Below are positions 5,276-14,706 of a stretch of 35,643 nt of DNA, one piece after another. Position 1 is the stretch's first letter. Each line of letters opens with the position of its first letter. A program made the position numbers and the translations under genes. This stretch comes from Bacteroidaceae bacterium (lineage in GTDB: Bacteria; Bacteroidota; Bacteroidia; Bacteroidales; Bacteroidaceae): assembly GCA_017448965.1 (NCBI GenBank), contig JAFSKK010000051.1, forward strand, positions 1 to 35,643. Direction: 5' to 3'. Below the pieces are notes generated by a model. The model worked only from the letters and a program-made list of their open reading frames with translations. It made no database searches and was not told where the DNA came from.

Positions 5276-7378
5276 TCAATTCACAGACAAATGCACCTCC
5301 ATCGTGGCTGTATATTGCTTGCTATCGGTGTGGGTGTAAACAAATGCCTGACGGATGATGTAGGTCTTGCCTTTGGTCAGACGTCCAGGATATTGTCCCA
5401 CATAGCAGCCATACTGGTCGGGATACATCTCGGCAAAGATAGCTGCAGAGTTATCATATCCCACCACATTGCCTGCTGTGGTGAACCAATGGCCGTAGCA
5501 GGTGCCGGACGAGGTGGAAGTGGTCGTGTTGTAGTTCTTGTTTCCATTCTTGCTCACACCAGCAAACACCAAAGTGCCTTTCGTGCCAGCGGAAGTGTTC
5601 CTCTTCACAGCCTTCATCTGTGCGGTGCTGACACCCAGCGCCTGACTGATGGCATCCATATCGTACTGTACACGCACACTGGAGTATTGGCTAGCGCTAT
5701 AGGCGAGGTCGGCATAGAGCACCACGGTGGTGTCTTTTCGTTCATAGTCTTCAGCGTAGTCGCCATAGGTGCGTGTGGTGCCCAATGCTGAACAATTATC
5801 AAATGCCACCTGATAAGGCCACTGCTCGTCGGTGGCATCACTATCATCCCAAGGATGGCGCCAATGCTCAGTAGGTGCACCCGTCACAACCAACCACGCA
5901 CGTTTGATATTCTCTGGCAAAGCCATTTCTGCCACACCTTCCTTGTCGCTGTACATATCGCCATAAACGCGTTCGCCATCAGTCGTCTGAGCCACGAAAC
6001 CATAACGCCAGCCAGCTTTTCCCACATTGATTTTGCGATAGCCATCCGCTCCGGCAATGCCCTTGAAGTTGGCCCTCACCGTTGTACCGCCCTTGAAGCC
6101 CTTCAACGGAATGATGTTGAAGCCATAGTTCTGAGGACAGTTCTCAGCATTGACCGCATAGGTGTTGTCAGTACCTTCCACGTAGGTCAGTTTGGTAGAG
6201 AAAGCATTCTGATAGTTCTTGCCACGATCGCGAATGCCATCGATGTCCCATGTAGTCACACGGCAAGCATAGTCGAACATCATCTTGTTGAAGTCGCTCT
6301 GTGTGGCACCTGTCATACGCTTGTAGGTCTCCACAGGGTCTTCAGGGCGCTTGGTCTCACGCCACATCCGACCGATGAAGTCCTGTCCATGCAGTTGGCA
6401 CCAATAATACTGAATGAAATAGTTGGCATAACGGAAAAGGCTGCTTTCATAACCCTCGTGCAGCAGGTTCAGATAAGACCTCGACACATAAGTGCCGTAG
6501 TAGCCGCTGAAAAGACCTGCTGGGAACACCTGAAATCCCTGCCACTGCGCACAACTTTCCCACCAAGCACAACCACCGCTGCCGCCATCGCCAAAGCCCC
6601 ATTGCCAACCATGATTAGTACCCAAGTCGGCACTCACAAGAAACTGGAACACGTGGCCAATCTCATGTGCTGCCGTGTGACCGCCTTCAGCACCTGCTGC
6701 CCAAGGAGTGCAATGGAAGAGGCCCACCTTGCAGGACTTGCTCTTCTTCGTTCCCTCGTAATACCACACTGTACCATCTGTACCAGAGCCATCAGCACGC
6801 CATGCGTTTCCGTCCCACGATGTCTTCACGATGAACATGCAGATTTTATGCGTGTCAGTCGTTGAATTACCAGGCTCCAAGAAACCCAGTTCTTCCACAT
6901 ACTTCTTCCAAATCTTCTCGCCATTGTCGAGCAGGGTCTTCACATTGACGGTGTAACCATTATAAGATATGGTGTTGCTCTTGGAGAGCGTCAATCCGTT
7001 CTCCCAGAAGCACACAAAATGCTCCGATTCCATCGAACGTTGGAAGCACCATTGAGAACTCTCCTTGGTGAAATCCACGTTTGAATAGGCAGAGGGCTTT
7101 ATCAATGTGCGCTCCGTCTTATCCAGACGATAGACACCATCTGTACGATAAGACTTGTTCAGTTTCACCACTTTCCCATTCGAAGGATTGGTTCTGTAAC
7201 GTGAGTAGGAAGACTTTCCGAAAATGATGGAGTCAACATCGGTCAAACTGATGATTTCATTTTCCGTGAAGGGGTCATCAAACTGAAACCAGAGGGTGTC
7301 TGGCTTCGTTTGGGCATTCACGTGCAGGCTCACCGCAGATGCGAGAAGAGCCAGCATTAGTATCATATTGCGCTTCAT
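5276..7378 (-). CDS. Secreted DUF6055/DUF4859-like protein with HExxH motif
   Basis: A 700-aa exported protein. A signal peptide (1-22, ending VNA) precedes a beta-rich N-terminal segment with ISLTDVDSIIFG. The central region (about 105-400) carries HTAAHEIGHVFQF, with HEIGH at 238-242 preceded by His234 and followed by WWESCAQWQ (Glu274). This is the arrangement of gluzincin-like metallopeptidases and of DUF6055 proteins. After a linker domain, the C-terminal 150 residues resemble DUF4859 (LGVSTAQMKA, then YGHWFTTAGNVVGY and GKTYIIRQAFVY). No catalytic function is proven for the family, so protease activity is inference. It follows the 152-aa secreted protein by 30 bases and is probably cotranscribed. 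Surface or extracellular location is likely. Confidence 0.82.
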   Translation of the reverse strand: MKRNMILMLALLASAVSLHVNAQTKPDTLWFQFDDPFTENEIISLTDVDSIIFGKSSYSRYRTNPSNGKVVKLNKSYRTDGVYRLDKTERTLIKPSAYSNVDFTKESSQWCFQRSMESEHFVCFWENGLTLSKSNTISYNGYTVNVKTLLDNGEKIWKKYVEELGFLEPGNSTTDTHKICMFIVKTSWDGNAWRADGSGTDGTVWYYEGTKKSKSCKVGLFHCTPWAAGAEGGHTAAHEIGHVFQFLVSADLGTNHGWQWGFGDGGSGGCAWWESCAQWQGFQVFPAGLFSGYYGTYVSRSYLNLLHEGYESSLFRYANYFIQYYWCQLHGQDFIGRMWRETKRPEDPVETYKRMTGATQSDFNKMMFDYACRVTTWDIDGIRDRGKNYQNAFSTKLTYVEGTDNTYAVNAENCPQNYGFNIIPLKGFKGGTTVRANFKGIAGADGYRKINVGKAGWRYGFVAQTTDGERVYGDMYSDKEGVAEMALPENIKRAWLVVTGAPTEHWRHPWDDSDATDEQWPYQVAFDNCSALGTTRTYGDYAEDYERKDTTVVLYADLAYSASQYSSVRVQYDMDAISQALGVSTAQMKAVKRNTSAGTKGTLVFAGVSKNGNKNYNTTTSTSSGTCYGHWFTTAGNVVGYDNSAAIFAEMYPDQYGCYVGQYPGRLTKGKTYIIRQAFVYTHTDSKQYTATMEVHLSVN

Positions 7379-7408
7379 AAACTTTAAACTCTAAACTTTA
7401 AACTCTCA

Positions 7409-7867
7409 TCATTTCTTCATCACCGTCATCGACGACTTGCCGAAATTGACCACATAAACGCCTTTAGAGAGTCGGTTCAGATTCACCGAGATGAGGTCGC
7501 CCGACTTCTGAACATCAGCATTAACTTCCACACCATTAGGGGTGAACACCTTCACATCCTGCACATCAGCCGCACTGACCACCAATGTGTTGGCGCTGAA
7601 TTTCACTTTCTTCTCCGCAAGTGTCGGTTCAATGCCCACGGGGTCATCTTCTTCCGACACGTAGAAGTTCTTGATGTTGCTCAGCTCATACTCATCAGTA
7701 TTGACCGTCACCTTTCCGTCCTTGAATTTCAGGATTGGGTCGGCATCGCCTCCCAGCAGGTAATAGACTTTGGTTTCCTGAGCATCGTTCAAGGTAAAGA
7801 CGATGCTTCTGGCCATTGCTCCCAGAGAAAGCAGGCTTGCACACAGTAAAAGAGTAAGTTTTTTCAT
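7409..7867 (-). CDS. Secreted protein with type IX sorting-domain-like C-terminus
   Basis: A 152-aa protein with a signal peptide (1-19, ending LGAMA). A short beta-rich body (SIVFTLNDAQETKVYYLLGG and onward) includes a LSNIKNFYV segment of the kind found just after signal peptides in Bacteroidales secreted proteins. The last 50 residues (VKVFTPNGVEV..., LSKGVYVVNFGKSSMTVMKK) follow the pattern of type A C-terminal sorting domains: the N-G turn, L-xx-GVYVV strand and basic end. PorX and PorW elsewhere in the window show that the organism has a type IX secretion system, so this small protein may be cargo. It lies between the 60-aa membrane protein (16 bases upstream) and the HExxH protein (30 bases downstream). 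A stretch of repeated AAACTTTAAACTCT follows its stop. Confidence 0.75.
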   Translation of the reverse strand: MKKLTLLLCASLLSLGAMARSIVFTLNDAQETKVYYLLGGDADPILKFKDGKVTVNTDEYELSNIKNFYVSEEDDPVGIEPTLAEKKVKFSANTLVVSAADVQDVKVFTPNGVEVNADVQKSGDLISVNLNRLSKGVYVVNFGKSSMTVMKK

Positions 7868-7883
7868 TTTTTTCGCTTTAGTT

Positions 7884-8066
7884 TTAGGATTTTAATAGAT
7901 TTCTAACATTGATTCCGAACCAGACAAGTCCCAAGAAGAAGACAATCATAATGACAATGGACATCGTATCTTGCAACACGGTGTAAAGCCAAATGCTCGC
8001 TCCAAAGCACACGACGATGAAGACGAGCGAGAGAATCATGAATATTTTTCTGAGCCTTTCCATCAC
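7884..8066 (-). CDS. Small two-helix membrane protein
   Basis: A 60-aa hydrophobic protein with two predicted transmembrane helices (about 10-30 and 34-54), basic residues at the N-terminus (ERLRK) and a short basic end (NVRNLLKS). It begins at GTG 8066 or, three bases later, at ATG 8063; the ATG start is equally plausible. It follows cysS by 24 bases and precedes the next gene by 16, so it is likely cotranscribed with both. I recognise no family. Confidence 0.6.
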   Translation of the reverse strand: MMERLRKIFMILSLVFIVVCFGASIWLYTVLQDTMSIVIMIVFFLGLVWFGINVRNLLKS

Positions 8067-8090
8067 GTTTCCGCTTCTTGAATGAGACTT

Positions 8091-9596
8091 TTATTTGTTG
8101 AGTTTCCAAGTGAACCCGTCCTTCGTGTCCTTCACCTCAAAGCCCAGGGCGGCAAGATTGTCGCGAATCATGTCGCTGGTGGCCCAGTCTTTGTTGGCTT
8201 TGGCTTTAGCACGCTGCTCCAAGAGCATGTCAACCACCTTTCCGAAGGCCTCTTCGCGGGCATCGTTCATACCGCCTGCAGCAGCCACCGATGCAGCACC
8301 TGCCTTCAAGCCCAGCAAGTCGAAGGCGAAGAGTTTGAAGACCTCCTTCAAGGCTTCCAGCGCATCGGGCGTGATGGTTTCCTTCTTGTCGACAATGGAA
8401 TTGATGGTCTTGGTGGCATCGAAGAGATGAGAGATGACGATAGGAGTGTTGAAGTCATCATACATCGCATCGTAGCACTGCTGCTTGAGCGTATTCACAA
8501 AGTCGATGCCCACAGAACCGCCATCGGTGGGTTGGATGCTTTGGAGCGCCTTCCAGGCATCGAGCAATCTTTCCAATCCCTTTTCTGCGGCTTGGAGTGC
8601 ATCGTTGCTAAAGTCAACGGTGGAGCGATAGTGTGCCTGAAGGATGAAGAATCGGATGGTCATGGGCGAGTAGGCACGGTCGAGCTTCGGATGGTCACCG
8701 CTGAAGAATTGCGGCAGAGTGATGAAGTTGCCGAGCGATTTGCCCATCTTCTGTCCCTCGATGGTGATCATGTTGTTATGAATCCAGTAGGTCACCATCT
8801 GATCACCTTGGCTGGCTACGGCTTGGGCTATCTCACACTCGTGGTGAGGGAAGACAAGATCCATACCGCCTCCGTGGATGTCGAAGTGGGCACCAAGGTA
8901 TTTCCGACCCATCGCGGTGCACTCGCAGTGCCAACCGGGGAAGCCATCGCTCCAAGGCGAAGGCCAGCGCATGATGTGTTCTGGTTGGGCAGCCTTCCAG
9001 AGTGCAAAGTCGGCTTGATTGTGCTTCTCACCCACACCGGCGAGGTCGCGGCTGGCGTCTTTCACATTCTCAAGGCTACGGCCAGAGAGAATGCCATACT
9101 TGTGAACTTTGTTGTATTTCTCCACATCAAAGTAGATGGAGCCGTTGCTCTCGTAGGCAAAGCCGTTGTCGAGAATCTGCTGCACCAGCTGTTGCTGTTC
9201 GATGATGTGTCCTGTGGCATGAGGCTCGATGCTGGGAGGCAAGCAACCCAGGGCATCCATTGCCTCGTGGAATCGGTTGGTGTAATACTGAGCCACTTCC
9301 ATCGGCTCCAGTTGCTCCAGACGTGCCTTCTTGGCAATCTTGTCCTCGCCTTCGTCGGCATCATGCTCCAAATGCCCCACATCGGTGATGTTGCGCACGT
9401 AGCGCACCTTGTAGCCGATGTGCTGCAGGAAGCGGAAGATGATGTCGAAAGTGATGGCGGGACGTGCATGTCCCAAGTGAGCGTCACCATATACTGTAGG
9501 TCCGCAGACATACATGCCCACGTGTGGCGCATGCAGTGGGCGGAACACCTCTTTCTTTCTGGTCAGGGTGTTGTAAACGTAAAGTGCCTGTTCCAT
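8091..9596 (-). CDS. cysS: Cysteinyl-tRNA synthetase
   Basis: Class I aminoacyl-tRNA synthetase that charges tRNA-Cys. The 501-aa length is normal or slightly long for the family. Motifs: Cys31 in [10 protein letters not shown] and [10 protein letters not shown] / HHECEIAQ provide the zinc site that selects cysteine. HLGH at 40-43 is the HIGH motif and KMGKS near residue 283 is the KMSKS motif. The C-terminal helical DALR-like domain follows and ends in an anticodon-binding part ([11 protein letters not shown]). The start is fixed by conservation of the opening ([11 protein letters not shown]) and by a promoter 30 bases upstream. It is the first gene of a probable unit with the three minus-strand genes below it. 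Confidence 0.97.
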
Positions 9597-9627
9597 GTTT
9601 ACTTTTGCTTTTGCTTTAAAATGCGTA

Positions 9628-9658
9628 CAAAGGTACGGAGAATCACGAATATGGCAAA
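9628..9658 (-). promoter_or_regulatory. cysS promoter
   Basis: Minus-strand TTTG (9655-9658), 19 bases, TACCTTTG (9628-9635): an exact fit to the Bacteroidota -33/-7 promoter. Transcription should start about 25 bases before the cysS ATG. The palindrome array begins 28 bases upstream of it. Confidence 0.8.
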
Positions 9659-9685
9659 GAAAAAGGGATTTTTTTTGTTTTTAGC

Positions 9686-9800
9686 AGAAGTCGTTCATAA
9701 GTTATGGACAATTATTCATAAGTTACGGATAATTATTCATAAGTTATGAACAAATATTCATAAGTTATGAACAAATATTCATAAGTTATGAACGACTTCT
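9686..9800. repeat. Five palindromes in 21-bp phase, bounded by a 15-bp inverted repeat
   Basis: The 15-base palindrome TTCATAAGTTATGAA (or a near copy) starts at 9694, 9715, 9736, 9757 and 9778, exactly 21 bases apart. Copies 3-5 are perfect; copies 1 and 2 vary in the right half. Spacers are A/T-rich and similar (ACAATTA, TAATTA, CAAATA). The block is closed by AGAAGTCGTTCATAA (9686-9700) and its exact reverse complement (9786-9800). It lies between the divergent cysS and ferredoxin-operon promoters. It could be an operator array (two helical turns per site) or a small palindromic repeat element. Confidence 0.88.
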
Positions 9801-9815
9801 ACTACGCCGTCGCCC

Positions 9816-9858
9816 CATAAGCGGTAGTGGAGTGGAGTCATAAGTGGCAGTGGAGGGC
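9816..9858. repeat. Two imperfect 20-bp direct repeats starting CATAAG
   Basis: CATAAGCGGTAGTGGAGTGG (9816-9835) and CATAAGTGGCAGTGGAGGGC (9839-9858) differ at four positions. Both open with the CATAAG found in the palindromes just upstream, suggesting shared ancestry or a degenerated continuation of that array. Confidence 0.55.
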
Positions 9859-9925
9859 AATGCGACGAGGTTGTGGAGGAAACGGCACGCTTCTTATGGC
9901 ACATTTGGAAAAAAATCACTTCTTT

Positions 9926-9959
9926 TTTGTTGTGTTTCGGAAAATAATCACTACTTTTG
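9926..9959 (+). promoter_or_regulatory. Promoter of the polyferredoxin-Tat operon
   Basis: TTTG (9926-9929), 22 bases, TACTTTTG (9952-9959) matches the Bacteroidota promoter form. It predicts a start near 9966 and a leader of about 35 bases before the ATG at 10001. Confidence 0.75.
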
Positions 9960-10000
9960 TGGCGCAAACATTTATAACACGTAATTCTGAAGTAATACCG

Positions 10001-11617
10001 ATGCTGAAACTAATCCGCAGGATCCTCGCCGTCATTTTCTGGTTAGGAATCACCCTTTTGTTCCTCGACTTCACGGGAACCATGCAGCCCATCCTCGGAT
10101 GGATGGCGAAACTGCAATTCTTGCCCAGCGTGCTGGCGCTCAACGGCATATCCATCGCGATTGTGCTGGTGCTGACGCTCGTGCTGGGGCGTATCTACTG
10201 TTCCGTCGTCTGTCCGCTTGGCGTCTTGCAGGACTTCTTTGCGTGGATTGGCAACCTGCGCATCTTCCGCAAGAACAAAAAGGCCAAGTTCGCCAACCGC
10301 TACAGCTACTCGAAAGAAAAGAGAGGGCTGCGGCTCACGGTGCTCGTCCTCTTCTTCATCATGCTCGTGGCAGGCTTCAATGCAGGCATGGTGCTGTTGG
10401 CTCCCTACAGTTCCTACGGACGCATCGTATCCTCGTTCATCCAGCCCCTCTACATCGGCATCAACAACCTGTTGGCACAATGGTCGGAGGCCAGCGACAA
10501 CTACCTCTTCTACCAAGTGGAACAGCATGATAAGCCTCTCATTCTGTGGGTCATCGCTGGTGCGACAGCCCTCATCCTTTTCGTGCTCGCCTTCCTGCAC
10601 GGCCGCACCTACTGCAACACCATCTGTCCCGTAGGCACCGTGCTCGGCTATCTTGCCAAGTTCTCACGGCTGAAGATGCAGGTGGATGAGGACAAGTGCA
10701 TCCAATGCGGCCTCTGCGAGAAAAACTGCAAGGCTGCCTGCATCAAAGTGGAGAAGGGGCAACCCGTTTTGTTTGACTACACACGATGCGTCACCTGCGG
10801 CAACTGCGAAACCGTATGCAGCAAGGGGGCACTCCGTCTGTCTCCTGTGAGAAAGCAGAGCAATCAGAATAATCAGAGCAATCAGAATACTTCGAATAAT
10901 CCGACTACTCCGAAAGAAGGCGACCTTTCCCGCCGCTCCTTCCTCGCCATCACAGGCACAGCCATTGCTGCCGCCACCCTTGAGGCGCAGGAAAAGACCA
11001 CCGACGGAGGATTGGCCGTCATCGAAGACAAGAAGATTCCTCAGCGCAAGACGCCGCTCACCCCTCCCGGTTCGCTCTCAGCAGCCAACCTGCAGCAGCA
11101 TTGCACCGCTTGCCAACTCTGCATCGCCAACTGCCCCAATGGCGTGTTGCGCCCATCGACCGATATGGCACACCTCTTACAACCCGCGATGGAATACGAC
11201 AAAGGGTTCTGCCGACCCGAATGCACCCGATGTGCCGACGTTTGCCCCGCTGGTGCCATCCGCCCCATCACGGTGGAGGAGAAGACCGCCATCCAAATCG
11301 GTCATGCTGTGTGGATCAAGGAGAACTGTCTGCCTGCTTCGCAAGGCCAGAAGTGTGGCAGTTGTGCCGCCCACTGCCCTGCCGAAGCCATCCAGATGGT
11401 GCCCATCGACAAGAGCATCAAGCAGAACCCCGACGACGGAGAATGGTATGACGGCGACGGCAACAAACTGGATTGGCGTGCCGTGAACGACCTGCTCCGC
11501 ATCCCTGTGGTGGACACCGAAAAATGTATTGGCTGCGGCAAGTGCGAGTACCTCTGCCCTGCCCGACCTTTTAGTGCCATCTATGTGGAAGGGCACGAAA
11601 CACACCGAGAAATCTGA
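10001..11617 (+). CDS. Membrane polyferredoxin (NapH/NosR-like) with internal Tat segment
   Basis: A 538-aa protein. I chose ATG 10001 because the promoter at 9926-9959 excludes the longer reading frame and the first helix begins there (MLKLIRRILAVIFW). The N-terminal half has about four or five membrane helices and two CxxxCP motifs (Cys67/71 in YCSVVCPLG, Cys205/209 in YCNTICPVG), as in NapH and NosR electron-transfer proteins. Two 4Fe-4S motifs follow (Cys233-243, Cys263-273). A Gln/Asn-rich linker (about 286-305) leads to SRRSFLAITGTAIAAA (310-325), a twin-arginine segment. Four more cysteine clusters follow (368-378, 404-415, 443-459, 509-519). Electrons may pass through the membrane, with the C-terminal clusters outside. 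It heads the operon that ends in tatA and tatC. Confidence 0.88.
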   Translation: MLKLIRRILAVIFWLGITLLFLDFTGTMQPILGWMAKLQFLPSVLALNGISIAIVLVLTLVLGRIYCSVVCPLGVLQDFFAWIGNLRIFRKNKKAKFANRYSYSKEKRGLRLTVLVLFFIMLVAGFNAGMVLLAPYSSYGRIVSSFIQPLYIGINNLLAQWSEASDNYLFYQVEQHDKPLILWVIAGATALILFVLAFLHGRTYCNTICPVGTVLGYLAKFSRLKMQVDEDKCIQCGLCEKNCKAACIKVEKGQPVLFDYTRCVTCGNCETVCSKGALRLSPVRKQSNQNNQSNQNTSNNPTTPKEGDLSRRSFLAITGTAIAAATLEAQEKTTDGGLAVIEDKKIPQRKTPLTPPGSLSAANLQQHCTACQLCIANCPNGVLRPSTDMAHLLQPAMEYDKGFCRPECTRCADVCPAGAIRPITVEEKTAIQIGHAVWIKENCLPASQGQKCGSCAAHCPAEAIQMVPIDKSIKQNPDDGEWYDGDGNKLDWRAVNDLLRIPVVDTEKCIGCGKCEYLCPARPFSAIYVEGHETHREI

Positions 11618-11659
11618 AAACAACTTCCATTTTTCATTCCTTCAATTCTTCAATTTCTC

Positions 11660-13081
11660 ATGAAAGATATCAACAGAAGAGACTTCCTCAAGATAGCAGG
11701 AGCCGCCACTGCAACAGCAACCCTCGTGGCTTGCGGAAACAAGGCTGGCAACGAATTGGGCGACCTCGACCCGGCAGGACACCATACAGGGCCGATTCCA
11801 ACGGACAAAATGACCTATCGCACCAACCCCAACACGGGCGACAAGGTGTCTATTCTCGGCTATGGCATGATGCGCCTGCCCAACAAGCCCGTCGCCCCCA
11901 CCAACGACCCCAGTGCACCAACTCCTGAAGAGATTGACCAGGAACAGGTGAACAAACTGGTGAAGTTCGCCCTCGACCACGGGGTGAACTATTTCGACAC
12001 CAGCCCTGCCTATTGTCAGGGTCACTCGGAGGAGAGCACCGGCATCGCTCTGAAAGCATCGGGTTACGACCGCTCAAAGTTCCACATTGCCACCAAGTTG
12101 AGCAACTTCGCCCCTCAGCAGCAAACGTATGAAGAGGGCGTGAAGATGTTCCAGAACTCGCTCAAATTTCTGCAAACCGACTACATCGACTACCTGCTGC
12201 TGCATGCTGTCGGCGGAGGGGGCATTGAGAACCTCAACAGGCGTTTCATCGACAACGGAGTGCTCGATTACTTGCTGGAGCAGCGCGAGAAGGGAGCCAT
12301 CCGCAATCTGGGCTTCTCCTTTCATGGCGATGTGGAAGTGTTTGACCACCTGCTGGCCAACCACGACAAATACCATTGGGACTTCGTGCAAATTCAGATG
12401 AACTATGTGGATTGGAAACTGGCAAACGAGACGAACCCCAGCAACGTCGATGGCGAATACCTCTATGGAGAACTGGAGAAACGGGGCATCCCGGCAGTCA
12501 TCATGGAGCCGCTTCTCGGTGGTCGCCTCTCGAAGATGCCTGATCATATCGTCGCCACCCTCAAGCAACAGCGTCCTGAGGACAGCGTGGCATCGTGGGC
12601 ATTCCGCTACGTAGGCACGAAACCCAATGTGCTCACTGCCCTGAGCGGCATGACCTACATGGAGCATCTGGAAGACAACTTGCGCACGTACAGTCCTTTG
12701 GAACCACTCAGCGAAGAGGAACAGGAATGGCTTGAGAACGAGATTGCCAACCTCTATGTCTCCTACCCCACCATTCCCTGCAACGACTGCAAATACTGCA
12801 TGCCGTGCCCTTACGGATTGGACATCCCTGCCATCTTCGTACATTACAACAAATGTGTGAATAAAGGCAATGTGCCTGAAAATCAGCAGGCAGAAAACTA
12901 CCGTGAGGCAAGACGCGCCTTCCTCGTGGGTTACGACCGCGCCGTGCCAAAGCTGCGTCAAGCCAGCCACTGCATCTCGTGCGGCAAATGCGTCCCCCAC
13001 TGCCCGCAGAACATCCGCATTCCGATGGAACTGCACCGCATTGACGATTTTGTAGAAAAACTTAAACAAGGAACACTATGA
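11660..13081 (+). CDS. Tat-lipoprotein aldo/keto reductase with ferredoxin domain
   Basis: A 473-aa protein. It opens with a classic Tat signal ([16 protein letters not shown], Arg6-Arg7) that ends in a lipobox LVAC, with Cys25 the likely lipid anchor. An aldo/keto reductase barrel follows (about 50-340): [14 protein letters not shown] carries the catalytic Asp and Tyr, HIATKLSN the Lys, and [11 protein letters not shown] the His. The C-terminus has two 4Fe-4S motifs, [17 protein letters not shown] (from Cys374) and [18 protein letters not shown] (from Cys438). AKR-ferredoxin fusions are known in anaerobes; export by Tat means it folds and binds cofactors in the cytoplasm first. It lies 42 bases after the polyferredoxin, its probable electron partner, and its stop overlaps the tatA ATG. 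The substrate is unknown. Confidence 0.9.
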
Positions 13082-13281
13082 TACAACCTCTATTTCTCGG
13101 TCTTGGATGGCCTGAAATCATCGTCATCCTCCTCGTTGTTCTCCTCCTCTTTGGAGGCAAGAAGATTCCTGAACTCATGCGTGGAGCAGGTAAAGGTGTA
13201 CGTGCCTTCAAAGACGGCATGAAGGAAGTGACCACCGACGAAGACATCGACAAGAAAGAAGAAAAACAATCAGAACAGTAA
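13078..13281 (+). CDS. tatA: Tat translocase subunit TatA
   Basis: A 67-aa TatA-family pore-forming subunit of the twin-arginine translocase. A short extracytoplasmic end and one membrane helix ([25 protein letters not shown]) are followed by the FGxxKxPEL hinge and an amphipathic helix ([18 protein letters not shown]), then an acidic/basic tail. The ATG overlaps the stop of the reductase (ATGA), so translation is coupled. No separate TatB is present in the window; in minimal Tat systems TatA serves both roles. Confidence 0.95.
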
Positions 13282-13287
13282 ATCACT

Positions 13288-14007
13288 TTGACTTTTTGGG
13301 ATCATCTTGAAGAACTGCGCCATGTGCTGCTACGATGCATCATCGTCGTGGCACTCTTCGCTATCCTCGCCTTTGTGTTCAAGGACGAGGTATTTTGGGT
13401 GGTCTTTGCCCCGAAAAGTCCTGACTTTCTGCCACACATCTTCGGCAACTCGCCCGACATACGCCTCATCAACACCGAACTGACACGACAGTTCATCGTC
13501 CACATGATGACCAGTTTCTATGTTGGCATCATCGTGGCAGCCCCCTACATCATCTTTGAGCTTTACCGCTTCATCGCCCCCGCCCTATACCAAAACGAGC
13601 GGCGTTTCTCCACGCCGCTCGTCATTGCTTCTTATCTGATGTTCATGCTGGGCATCCTCTTCAACTATTTCATCGTCTTCCCCATCACCTTCCGCTTTCT
13701 TGGCAACTATCAGGTGGACAGTGCCGTCGAAAACCTCATCAGCCTTGAGAGTTACATCGATATGCTCGTTTTCCTGAGCCTCGCGATGGGAATTGTCTTC
13801 GAGATTCCCATTCTTTCCTGGTTGCTCGGTAAACTCGGCATCCTCCATCGGGCACAAATGCAGCAATTTCGCCGACACGCCATCGTCACCATCCTCATCA
13901 TCGCCGCCATCATCACCCCCACATCCGATGCGTTCACCCTCGCCATCGTCTCAGTTCCCATGTATCTGCTTTACGAACTGAGCATCCTGCTGGTGCCCCG
14001 TTCATAA
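13288..14007 (+). CDS. tatC: Tat translocase subunit TatC
   Basis: A 239-aa polytopic TatC, the receptor for twin-arginine signals. The N-terminus TFWDHLEELRHVLLRC is the conserved TatC signal-recognition segment, and six hydrophobic helices follow (for example VALFAILAFVF, FYVGIIVAAPYIIFELYRFIAPALY, LVIASYLMFMLGILFNYFIVF). The start codon is TTG at 13288, six bases after the tatA stop. There is no earlier in-frame ATG, and the family N-terminus begins exactly there. The rare start and weak ribosome site suggest low expression relative to TatA. Its last codons overlap the 3' end of the convergent coaX by 6 bases. Confidence 0.95.
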   Translation: MTFWDHLEELRHVLLRCIIVVALFAILAFVFKDEVFWVVFAPKSPDFLPHIFGNSPDIRLINTELTRQFIVHMMTSFYVGIIVAAPYIIFELYRFIAPALYQNERRFSTPLVIASYLMFMLGILFNYFIVFPITFRFLGNYQVDSAVENLISLESYIDMLVFLSLAMGIVFEIPILSWLLGKLGILHRAQMQQFRRHAIVTILIIAAIITPTSDAFTLAIVSVPMYLLYELSILLVPRS

Positions 14008-14706
14008 AACACTCAGCCCTCGAAACACCAAATAAGGGTCATGCGTGACGGGACAAGTGATGTCTTCGGCAAAATCGAACGTGTTACCACCCGTGATGAA
14101 CACATGCAAGTCGGGGTATTCCTTCATGAACTGGCGGATATAGCCTTCTATCTCAAAACGCGCACCATTCACAGCCGCAGAAAGCATGTGAGTGCGGGTG
14201 TCGTGCCCCAATATGGCCGACTCATTTTCTGCCTCGACCTGAGGGAGAAGTGCCGTGTGTTCGTGCATGGCGTTAAGCCTCAACTGCACACCTGGAGAGA
14301 TGGCACCACCGAGCAAACGACCATCAGCCGAGAAGAGGTCATAAGTGATACAAGTGCCTGCATCGATGATAAGTAGTGTGTGGTCTGGATCTTGAGCAAT
14401 GGCACCAATGTCTGCCGCCCATCGGTCCGCCCCATAAGTGGGAGGGACACCCGCAACGGGTTTGACAGGACATAGAACGGATGAGGTCAACCATATCACA
14501 GGAATATCCAAATGCACCAATGCTTCTTTCAGTTCCACATCTTCGCCTGCCACTGTGGAGAGGCGCACGTCATCAATAGAAAACGTCGCCATAAGCCGTG
14601 TGAAAGTTTCCTTCCACGGCTCATAGCGACGTTCGAAATGCACAATGTCCGTATCCATCACCGCCAATTTGGCGGAGGTATTGCCTATGTCGATTAAGAG
14701 TTTCAT
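14002..14706 (-). CDS. coaX: Type III pantothenate kinase
   Basis: Phosphorylates pantothenate in the first step of coenzyme A synthesis. At 234 aa it is slightly short for CoaX. It shows the ASKHA-fold motifs: LLIDIGNTSAKLAV (Asp6, phosphate 1), PPTYGADRWAADIGA (pantothenate/dimer site), LLIIDAGTCITYDL (catalytic Asp) and GGAISPGVQLR. A late FITGGNTFDF completes the ATP site. It is the last gene of the minus-strand train, 40 bases after the DUF2207 gene, and overlaps tatC tail to tail. Confidence 0.94.
   Translation of the reverse strand: MKLLIDIGNTSAKLAVMDTDIVHFERRYEPWKETFTRLMATFSIDDVRLSTVAGEDVELKEALVHLDIPVIWLTSSVLCPVKPVAGVPPTYGADRWAADIGAIAQDPDHTLLIIDAGTCITYDLFSADGRLLGGAISPGVQLRLNAMHEHTALLPQVEAENESAILGHDTRTHMLSAAVNGARFEIEGYIRQFMKEYPDLHVFITGGNTFDFAEDITCPVTHDPYLVFRGLSVL

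Follow-up and report, generated by a model that had tools for sequence, protein, structure and literature searches.

A polyferredoxin and a Tat-lipoprotein aldo/keto reductase encoded beside a TatA-TatC pair in Bacteroidaceae: comparative genomics of a putative electron line across the inner membrane

Background

Classical aldo/keto reductases use NAD(P)H and, as an enzyme class, are usually thought to be cytoplasmic. The DNA analyzed here, a window of 35,643 nucleotides (nt) from a Bacteroidaceae bacterium (assembly GCA_017448965.1, contig JAFSKK010000051.1), raises the question of what such an enzyme would do outside the cytoplasm, and how it would get there. Four genes on the + strand encode, in this order, a polyferredoxin (PFD), an aldo/keto reductase with the signal of a lipoprotein exported by twin-arginine translocation (AKR; Tat), TatA and TatC. 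An earlier note on this sequence had described the four products in these terms, a description borne out by profile matches and conservation, and had suggested that the translocase may be dedicated to the two iron-sulfur (Fe-S) proteins.

In this work, comparative genomics was applied to the window genome (designated G000), to compared genomes (other G numbers) and to compared loci (L numbers), with contigs labeled C24, C82 and the like. The best explanation of the results, which we consider somewhat probable, is a PFD-AKR electron line across the inner membrane, with AKR exported by a minimal Tat system that is linked to its clients. The pair is conserved and apparently uncharacterized, and no title or abstract about it was found in the open literature searched.

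Results

The polyferredoxin and the aldo/keto reductase

PFD matches many Fer4 families, and the NapH and NapG models match it below their cut-offs. Four membrane helices were predicted by hydropathy, with the cysteine-motif stretches 65-83 and 191-209 likewise above the threshold. PFD was aligned in 72 rows, comprising the window protein and 71 of the 76 extracted relatives (only those of at least 480 amino acids, aa). R312 is present in 72/72 rows, R311 in 69/72 (K in the other three) and F314 in 56/72, and the window protein has 29 cysteines, each kept in 71 or 72 rows. The Tat signal family PF10518 scores 20.7 bits on this segment, below its cut-off of 22.7. The two twin-arginine sequences noticed earlier thus differ in kind: that of AKR is N-terminal, whereas that of PFD is internal (residues 311-312) and follows four helices and two ferredoxin motifs. 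Such an arrangement fits the criteria for dual Sec/Tat proteins, namely an even number of helices (four) before the twin arginine and a segment of low hydrophobicity directly after it. In the available text of PMC5449189, NapH-NapG fusions are treated as dual Sec/Tat proteins, with Tat dependence shown by reporter fusions for one protein, Q1NSB0 of the delta proteobacterium MLMS-1. By analogy with what is described there, the layout of PFD is that of these fusions, and its weakly hydrophobic Tat segment fits the low-hydrophobicity handover described.

The AKR barrel scores 125.8 bits against PF00248 (cut-off 24), Fer4_9 is also above its cut-off, and the Tat signal scores 29.6 bits against PF10518 (cut-off 22.7). 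For comparison we used the best 80 named loci among at least 594 confirmed matches; the AKR alignment has 80 rows, the window protein and 79 of these. The twin arginine, the phenylalanine of the signal, the D-Y-K-H tetrad and nine cysteines are each found in 80/80 rows, and the lipobox cysteine C25 in 79/80. A strict lipobox pattern fits 63/75 loci, and the remaining 12 keep the cysteine, mostly in a YGC or PGC box. PFD adjoins AKR in 76/80 named loci; one of the four others, L059, is truncated by a contig end. Because this conservation spans 80 aligned AKRs and 72 aligned PFDs, chance can be excluded and, judged by these alignments, the two proteins form a conserved pair whose twin arginines hardly vary. 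A further observation concerns L065, L067 and L086, where Tat-signal AKR relatives have a common neighborhood of another kind. Many of the AKR-bearing assemblies come from gut and rumen, according to their record titles.

Tat machinery and detectable clients of the window genome

TatC matches PF00902 with 219 bits and TIGR00945 with 189.9 bits (cut-off 132.7), and TatA matches TIGR01411 with 72.8 bits (cut-off 53.9); on these profile matches, the neighboring genes encode a minimal TatAC translocase. The window copy is the only intact tatC found by a search of G000, an assembly of 3.03 Mb in 74 contigs that is 85.6% complete, so that sequence outside it could hide a client. A remnant of a second tatC, an open frame of 66 aa representing its last part, lies on contig C24. 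The sister genome G036, whose AKR is 99% identical to that of the window, has this second tatC intact within a cluster for CXXX-repeat peptides, alongside genes for radical SAM and maturase proteins and for three peptides of the target type whose starts are Tat-like (one of them above the TIGR04117 cut-off). A stretch of 273 bp on C24 matches the 3' end region of the G036 gene with 98.9% identity. The remainder of the CXXX cluster was not found in the 14 kb read around the remnant, and a misjoin in the draft assembly may be the cause of the fragment.

When G000 was scanned with PF10518, only AKR (E-value 1.8e-7) and PFD (0.0024) fell below an E-value of 1. PF10518 alone is insensitive, missing the CXXX-type Tat matches of G036, and therefore a Tat-signal profile, A1, was built, which found them. 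Its 23 rows are the window AKR, family PFDs, three CXXX-type starts of G036, one start of G002 and the start of a propeller protein of G025, and its scores for its own row proteins are not independent. In G000, A1 matched AKR (4.3e-14) and PFD (8.5e-8), followed by two frames of 80-89 aa at E-values above 0.7. AKR and PFD aside, A1 gave eight matches below 1e-3 outside its own rows (G036 two, G025 one, G015 two, G002 three). With its own rows included, there are five further matches on contig C82 of G036 (three own), two in G025 (one own), two in G015, and four in G002 (one own) plus one at 0.036. The DNA pattern RRxF[LF]K, which is blind to PFD, whose motif is without the lysine, occurs at 14 sites in G000 versus 23 in the control, with AKR as the sole N-terminal signal. 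No other Tat client was thus detected by PF10518, the pattern and A1 in this 85.6% complete genome. The earlier observation that the window holds only two Tat signals therefore extends over G000 as assembled, where neither many unrelated Tat substrates nor another intact tatC came to light.

Linkage of tatC to the pair across relatives

In 30/80 named loci tatC is linked to the pair: directly downstream in 18, downstream behind other genes in 10 (with an ECF-like protein in all 10), and upstream in two. The upstream tatAC of L091 and L103 is a second arrangement of linkage. TatC was found in 28 of the 30 genomes searched out of these 80 loci. Seven named Bacteroides species (L061, L062, L064, L066, L076, L082 and L095) have the pair and a single tatC elsewhere, with a masked stretch downstream of AKR in L061 (B. 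xylanisolvens); tatC is linked in L075 and L100, whose titles give no more than 'Bacteroides sp.'.

Among 61 relatives, TatC was present in 33/33 AKR bearers and in 53/61 overall (p=0.001, uncorrected for kinship), although the AKR matches of G039 and G043 among the 33 have no more than 34-37% identity and are probably not orthologs. An order-level sample of 198 genomes was drawn at 90% completeness, with the window genome added. AKR was found in 35/198, and TatC in 35/35 AKR bearers versus 133/163 genomes without AKR (p=0.0017, uncorrected for kinship; TatC totals 168/198 at E 0.001 and 166/198 over the cut-off). Of 29 AKR genomes in which the genes could be placed (G091, G107, G141, G185, G195 and G206 being outside this set), eight have tatC within about 10 kb of the pair (G000, G095, G131, G179, G223, G246, G254 and G265).

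Within the window genus (37 genomes including G000, AKR counted at E-values of at most 1e-30), tatC is present in 31/37 genomes and AKR in 24/37. All 24 AKR bearers have tatC, and 23 of them also have PFD, which is absent from the rest of the genus. According to the coordinates, tatC and AKR are contiguous in 20/24, G000 included, and apart in G004 (by about 30 kb), G014, G028 and G031. The six genomes without tatC, all at most 88% complete, have no AKR (0/6) and a propeller protein in 2/6, one with an in-frame stop.

These data bear on an alternative that we regard as possible, though with its chances clearly below even: that tatAC is a general Tat locus of the genus, usually beside cysS, and PFD-AKR one of several transient clients whose adjacency has little meaning. 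Seven genus members lack the pair but keep tatC, and in six of them the gene is still beside cysS (L138-L143, named by eye), with coaX on its other side in L138, L140 and L141 and cysS only in L139, L142 and L143. In 6/7 of these genomes a Tat-type propeller protein is encoded elsewhere, the match starting at residue 1; a Tat signal was identified in the copies of G016, G025, G030 and G033. In the window genus, the translocase hence stays when the pair is absent, mostly where another Tat-type protein is present in the genome. This alternative is opposed by the recurrence of linkage in other families and in different gene orders, by the eight linked genomes of the order sample, and by G000, which has no other detected client and in which a search found no propeller protein. 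Another Tat-type cluster of genus members, in L115 (2-3050) and L114 (1-3006), encodes a Tat-signal ferredoxin and two propeller proteins, one of the PQQ type and one with a Tat signal.

The TatC tree also argues against a general locus. It was built from 66 rows chosen from 100, after dropping repeat fetches, remnants and some others. The linked label requires nine changes on it versus a shuffled mean of 22.2, with 0/500 shuffles as low, a clustering to which near-copies contribute. Seventeen unlinked TatC proteins, from named Bacteroides and other AKR-bearing genomes, are split from the lineage of linked TatC with support of 100/99. The unlinked tatC of the seven named Bacteroides species thus belongs to another TatC clade than the linked genes, and G071 carries both an unlinked and a linked type. 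The linked lineage also includes 11 unlinked rows, every one of them from a member of the window genus. The CXXX type has five rows, four recognized by radical SAM genes nearby and one (L155) by similarity, and these form one clade (100/100), whose position is unsure given a warning of long-branch joins from the tree tool.

Across relatives, therefore, the translocase is client-linked and not dedicated, and in G000 it apparently serves only PFD and AKR. Of the dedication proposed earlier, the part concerning G000 stood, with no other client or intact tatC detected there; the wider part did not, as tatAC is often apart from the pair and retained without it in relatives. The translocase is not an obligate part of the PFD-AKR pair.

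A proposed electron route and its alternatives

The preferred explanation, an outward electron line from PFD to AKR, can be set out as follows. By likeness to the tested family, the four N-terminal helices of PFD would enter the membrane by Sec, and its NapG-like half with four cysteine sets would be moved out by Tat via the internal twin-arginine segment. AKR, whose signal is seen in its sequence, would fold in the cytoplasm together with its Fe-S clusters before being exported by Tat as a lipoprotein. The neighboring TatA-TatC would act as the minimal translocase, with AKR and PFD as its only detectable clients in G000. Electrons would come from menaquinol, or from a cytoplasmic ferredoxin through the inner clusters of PFD, and pass from PFD over the two AKR clusters to the barrel, where a carbonyl-type substrate may be reduced outside the cytoplasm. 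By analogy, this would be an electron path across the membrane. Electron transfer is suggested by the near-invariant cysteines of AKR together with its near-constant PFD partner.

The direction of flow could be the reverse, with AKR oxidizing an extracytoplasmic alcohol or sugar and PFD passing the electrons to menaquinone, an alternative that we find rather unlikely. L-galactose dehydrogenases are NAD-dependent enzymes. Two of them (7smi, 8scc), oxidizing by name, are the PDB entries closest in sequence to the AKR profile and have a GM...EN motif in common with it. These matches are remote and confined to the barrel, and with the single window sequence as query the top match is 9yeb. NapGH, moreover, is a quinol dehydrogenase in the available text of PMC5449189, which corresponds to electrons flowing outward.

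Another alternative is that AKR takes up a tightly bound NAD(H) in the cytoplasm and is exported with it in the folded state, like glucose-fructose oxidoreductase, its Fe-S domain serving assembly or a side reaction. A D-Y-K-H tetrad acts with a nicotinamide; the tetrad of AKR, for whose residues we assume the customary roles, is intact in 80/80 rows. A K/R usually binds the 2'-phosphate; no such residue is present at the GM...EN motif, a hint that any nicotinamide used would be NAD and not NADP. The Tat substrates described in the available text of PMC5449189 include folded, cofactor-containing domains. However, the reduction of a nicotinamide by one-electron clusters without a flavin would be unusual, and the invariant AKR cysteines and the near-constant PFD partner speak for electron transfer. 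We take this alternative to be unlikely, if credible.

In the wider family, the pair might reduce an imported compound, with a TonB receptor and an ECF-like protein as the uptake route and the window version without those neighbors; this appears quite unlikely to us. Downstream of AKR, DUF1893, the TonB receptor and the ECF-like protein were found in 18, 12 and 17, respectively, of the 65 loci for which 4.5 kb or more of sequence was available, and the full order PFD-AKR-DUF1893-receptor-ECF-like-tatA-tatC occurs in L070, L078 and L100. The majority of the 65 loci are without these genes, and not one of the genes is found in L026-L038, which are nearest to the window; the ECF match does not reach the Pfam cut-off (24.5 vs 30.7), and TonB receptors are common in bacteria of the Bacteroidales type. 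The extended cluster was located in L070 at 5489-12262. No paper on DUF1893 was found in the open literature searched.

Several results weigh against the outward electron line with its client-linked translocase. PFD does not reach the curated NapH threshold (TIGR02163, 76.7 vs 213.05) or those of NapG (TIGR00397, 56.2 vs 178.85; NF007012, 57.7 vs 269). AKR stands without PFD, with room upstream, in L065, L067 and L086, and G038, G042, G049, G050 and G059 have more remote homologues of PFD (38-42% identity) but no AKR. In 50/80 named loci there is no tatC within at most 7 kb on each side, some of these ending at contig ends, and 21 of the 29 placed order members are unlinked, where contig breaks may hide some links and where one genome, G165, has a second tatC besides, its place not listed. 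Two of the 30 AKR genomes searched, both draft metagenome assemblies, have no detected tatC. The pair is missing from seven members of the genus that do have tatC (G003, G006, G016, G025, G026, G030 and G033), and one of them, G003, is 98% complete and has no propeller protein and no significant Tat signal by A1. The expectation that tatAC accompanies the redox pair constantly across relatives is contradicted by this frequent separation. Finally, to our knowledge, a classical AKR should have no NAD(P)H supply outside the cytoplasm; we infer that either the Fe-S clusters feed the barrel or the folded enzyme takes a nicotinamide along on export.

A broader generalization would be a new kind of extracytoplasmic reductase, an AKR fed from the quinol pool via Fe-S clusters rather than NAD(P)H and widespread in Bacteroidales as a Tat lipoprotein, together with several Tat systems tied to clients and differing in TatC lineage (redox pair, radical-SAM CXXX peptides, unlinked) that are gained and lost with their clients. 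We put this forward as a tentative idea that we consider unlikely.

Gene order and flanking DNA

The gaps of at most 42 nt and the ATGA overlap into tatA described earlier are borne out by the coordinates: PFD and AKR are 42 nt apart, AKR and tatA overlap by 4 nt, and tatA and tatC are separated by 6 nt (Table 1). The four-gene unit is flanked by a divergent cysS-like gene and a convergent coaX-like gene, both named by eye. The single promoter described earlier did not stand out in a sigma-70 scan, whose five sites versus a shuffled mean of 3.3 (standard deviation 1.9) lie inside the spread of the shuffles. A candidate, TTTG-N22-TACTTTTG, matches what we take to be a Bacteroidales-like promoter consensus, and this stretch is identical in G036. 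A consensus scan of the region to 14200 listed no + strand terminator-like site just 3' of tatC.

Between cysS and the operon lies a tandem array (9694-9793) with a period of 21 and 4.8 copies, each carrying a palindrome like TTCATAAGTTATGAA, with five sites within two mismatches versus 0.2 expected. As a conserved operator this palindromic 21-bp array was ruled out, being absent from G036; three sites similar to the palindrome were found in G032. A terminator-like hairpin of 11 pairs is located inside tatC (13595-13622).

Table 1. Features of the four-gene unit and of the second tatAC, in window positions unless a locus is given
Feature	Position	Strand	Details
Candidate promoter TTTG-N22-TACTTTTG	9926-9959	+	second element starts 49 nt before the PFD ATG; TTTG 26 nt further upstream
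PFD	10001-11617	+	538 aa; membrane polyferredoxin, NapH-like N half, NapG-like C half
Four predicted PFD membrane helices	10010-10594	+	residues 4-22, 44-62, 114-132, 180-198; hydropathy
Two PFD ferredoxin cysteine sets before the Tat segment, C233-C273	10697-10819	+	predicted cytoplasmic; sidedness inferred
Internal PFD twin-arginine segment, R311-R312, and weakly hydrophobic stretch	10922-10990	+	maximum hydropathy 0.86
Four NapG-like PFD cysteine sets after the Tat segment, C368-C519	11102-11557	+	predicted extracytoplasmic; sidedness inferred
AKR	11660-13081	+	473 aa; Tat-lipoprotein aldo/keto reductase, C-terminal ferredoxin-type domain
AKR Tat signal NRRDFLK ending in lipobox-like LVAC, C25	11660-11734	+	PF10518; alignment
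Aldo/keto reductase barrel with intact D113-Y118-K146-H182	11855-12721	+	PF00248; alignment
Two AKR ferredoxin-type cysteine sets, C374-C399 and C438-C448	12779-13003	+	alignment
tatA	13078-13281	+	67 aa; TIGR01411 above cut-off
tatC	13288-14007	+	239 aa, TTG start; TIGR00945 above cut-off
Second tatAC in CXXX-repeat radical SAM cluster	L136 (G036:C82) 8560-14059		
Remnant of second tatC (3' end)	L137 (G000:C24) 6380-6652		

Discussion

If the proposed route is true, the pair would let these bacteria send electrons from the cytoplasm outward to an AKR. Because the only detectable Tat clients of G000 are the two neighbors of tatAC, the phenotype of a Tat deletion should, in our judgment, be unusually easy to read.

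Several known systems share parts of this arrangement. Aldo/keto reductases with a ferredoxin-type C-terminus, which we take to be COG1453, resemble AKR in combining a PF00248 barrel with Fer4 cysteines, whereas the window protein has a Tat lipoprotein signal and stands beside PFD. The likeness to L-galactose dehydrogenase (7smi, 8scc) is remote and covers the barrel only. The glucose-fructose oxidoreductase of Zymomonas is exported by Tat with bound NADP, but it has another fold and no Fe-S clusters, and is soluble. The NapGH proteins of periplasmic nitrate reduction resemble PFD in pairing membrane and outer polyferredoxins in a relay from quinol to the periplasm; unlike them, PFD has an AKR as its partner, and it falls below the cut-offs of the NapH and NapG models.

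Two of the components belong to known kinds, insofar as the available texts of the cited papers describe them: the class of polyferredoxin and the client-linked Tat pair. PFD is like Q1NSB0 in its described layout of helices, inner cysteine sets, a twin arginine before a last weak helix, and four outer sets. For the dual Sec/Tat family, the available text of PMC5449189 names Chloroflexi, Nitrospirae and Euryarchaeota and not Bacteroidetes, whereas PFD comes from Bacteroidales; words beginning with 'aldo', as for an aldo/keto reductase partner, are absent from that paper. Client-linked TatAC pairs are described for Bacillus, where tatCd is found with phoD and some tatCy genes with efeB (available text of PMC3827258). 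The window and its relatives are similar in that a minimal TatA-TatC is encoded beside a Tat substrate and in that there is more than one Tat lineage; unlike in Bacillus, the clients here are Fe-S redox proteins, and the window genome retains one intact tatC.

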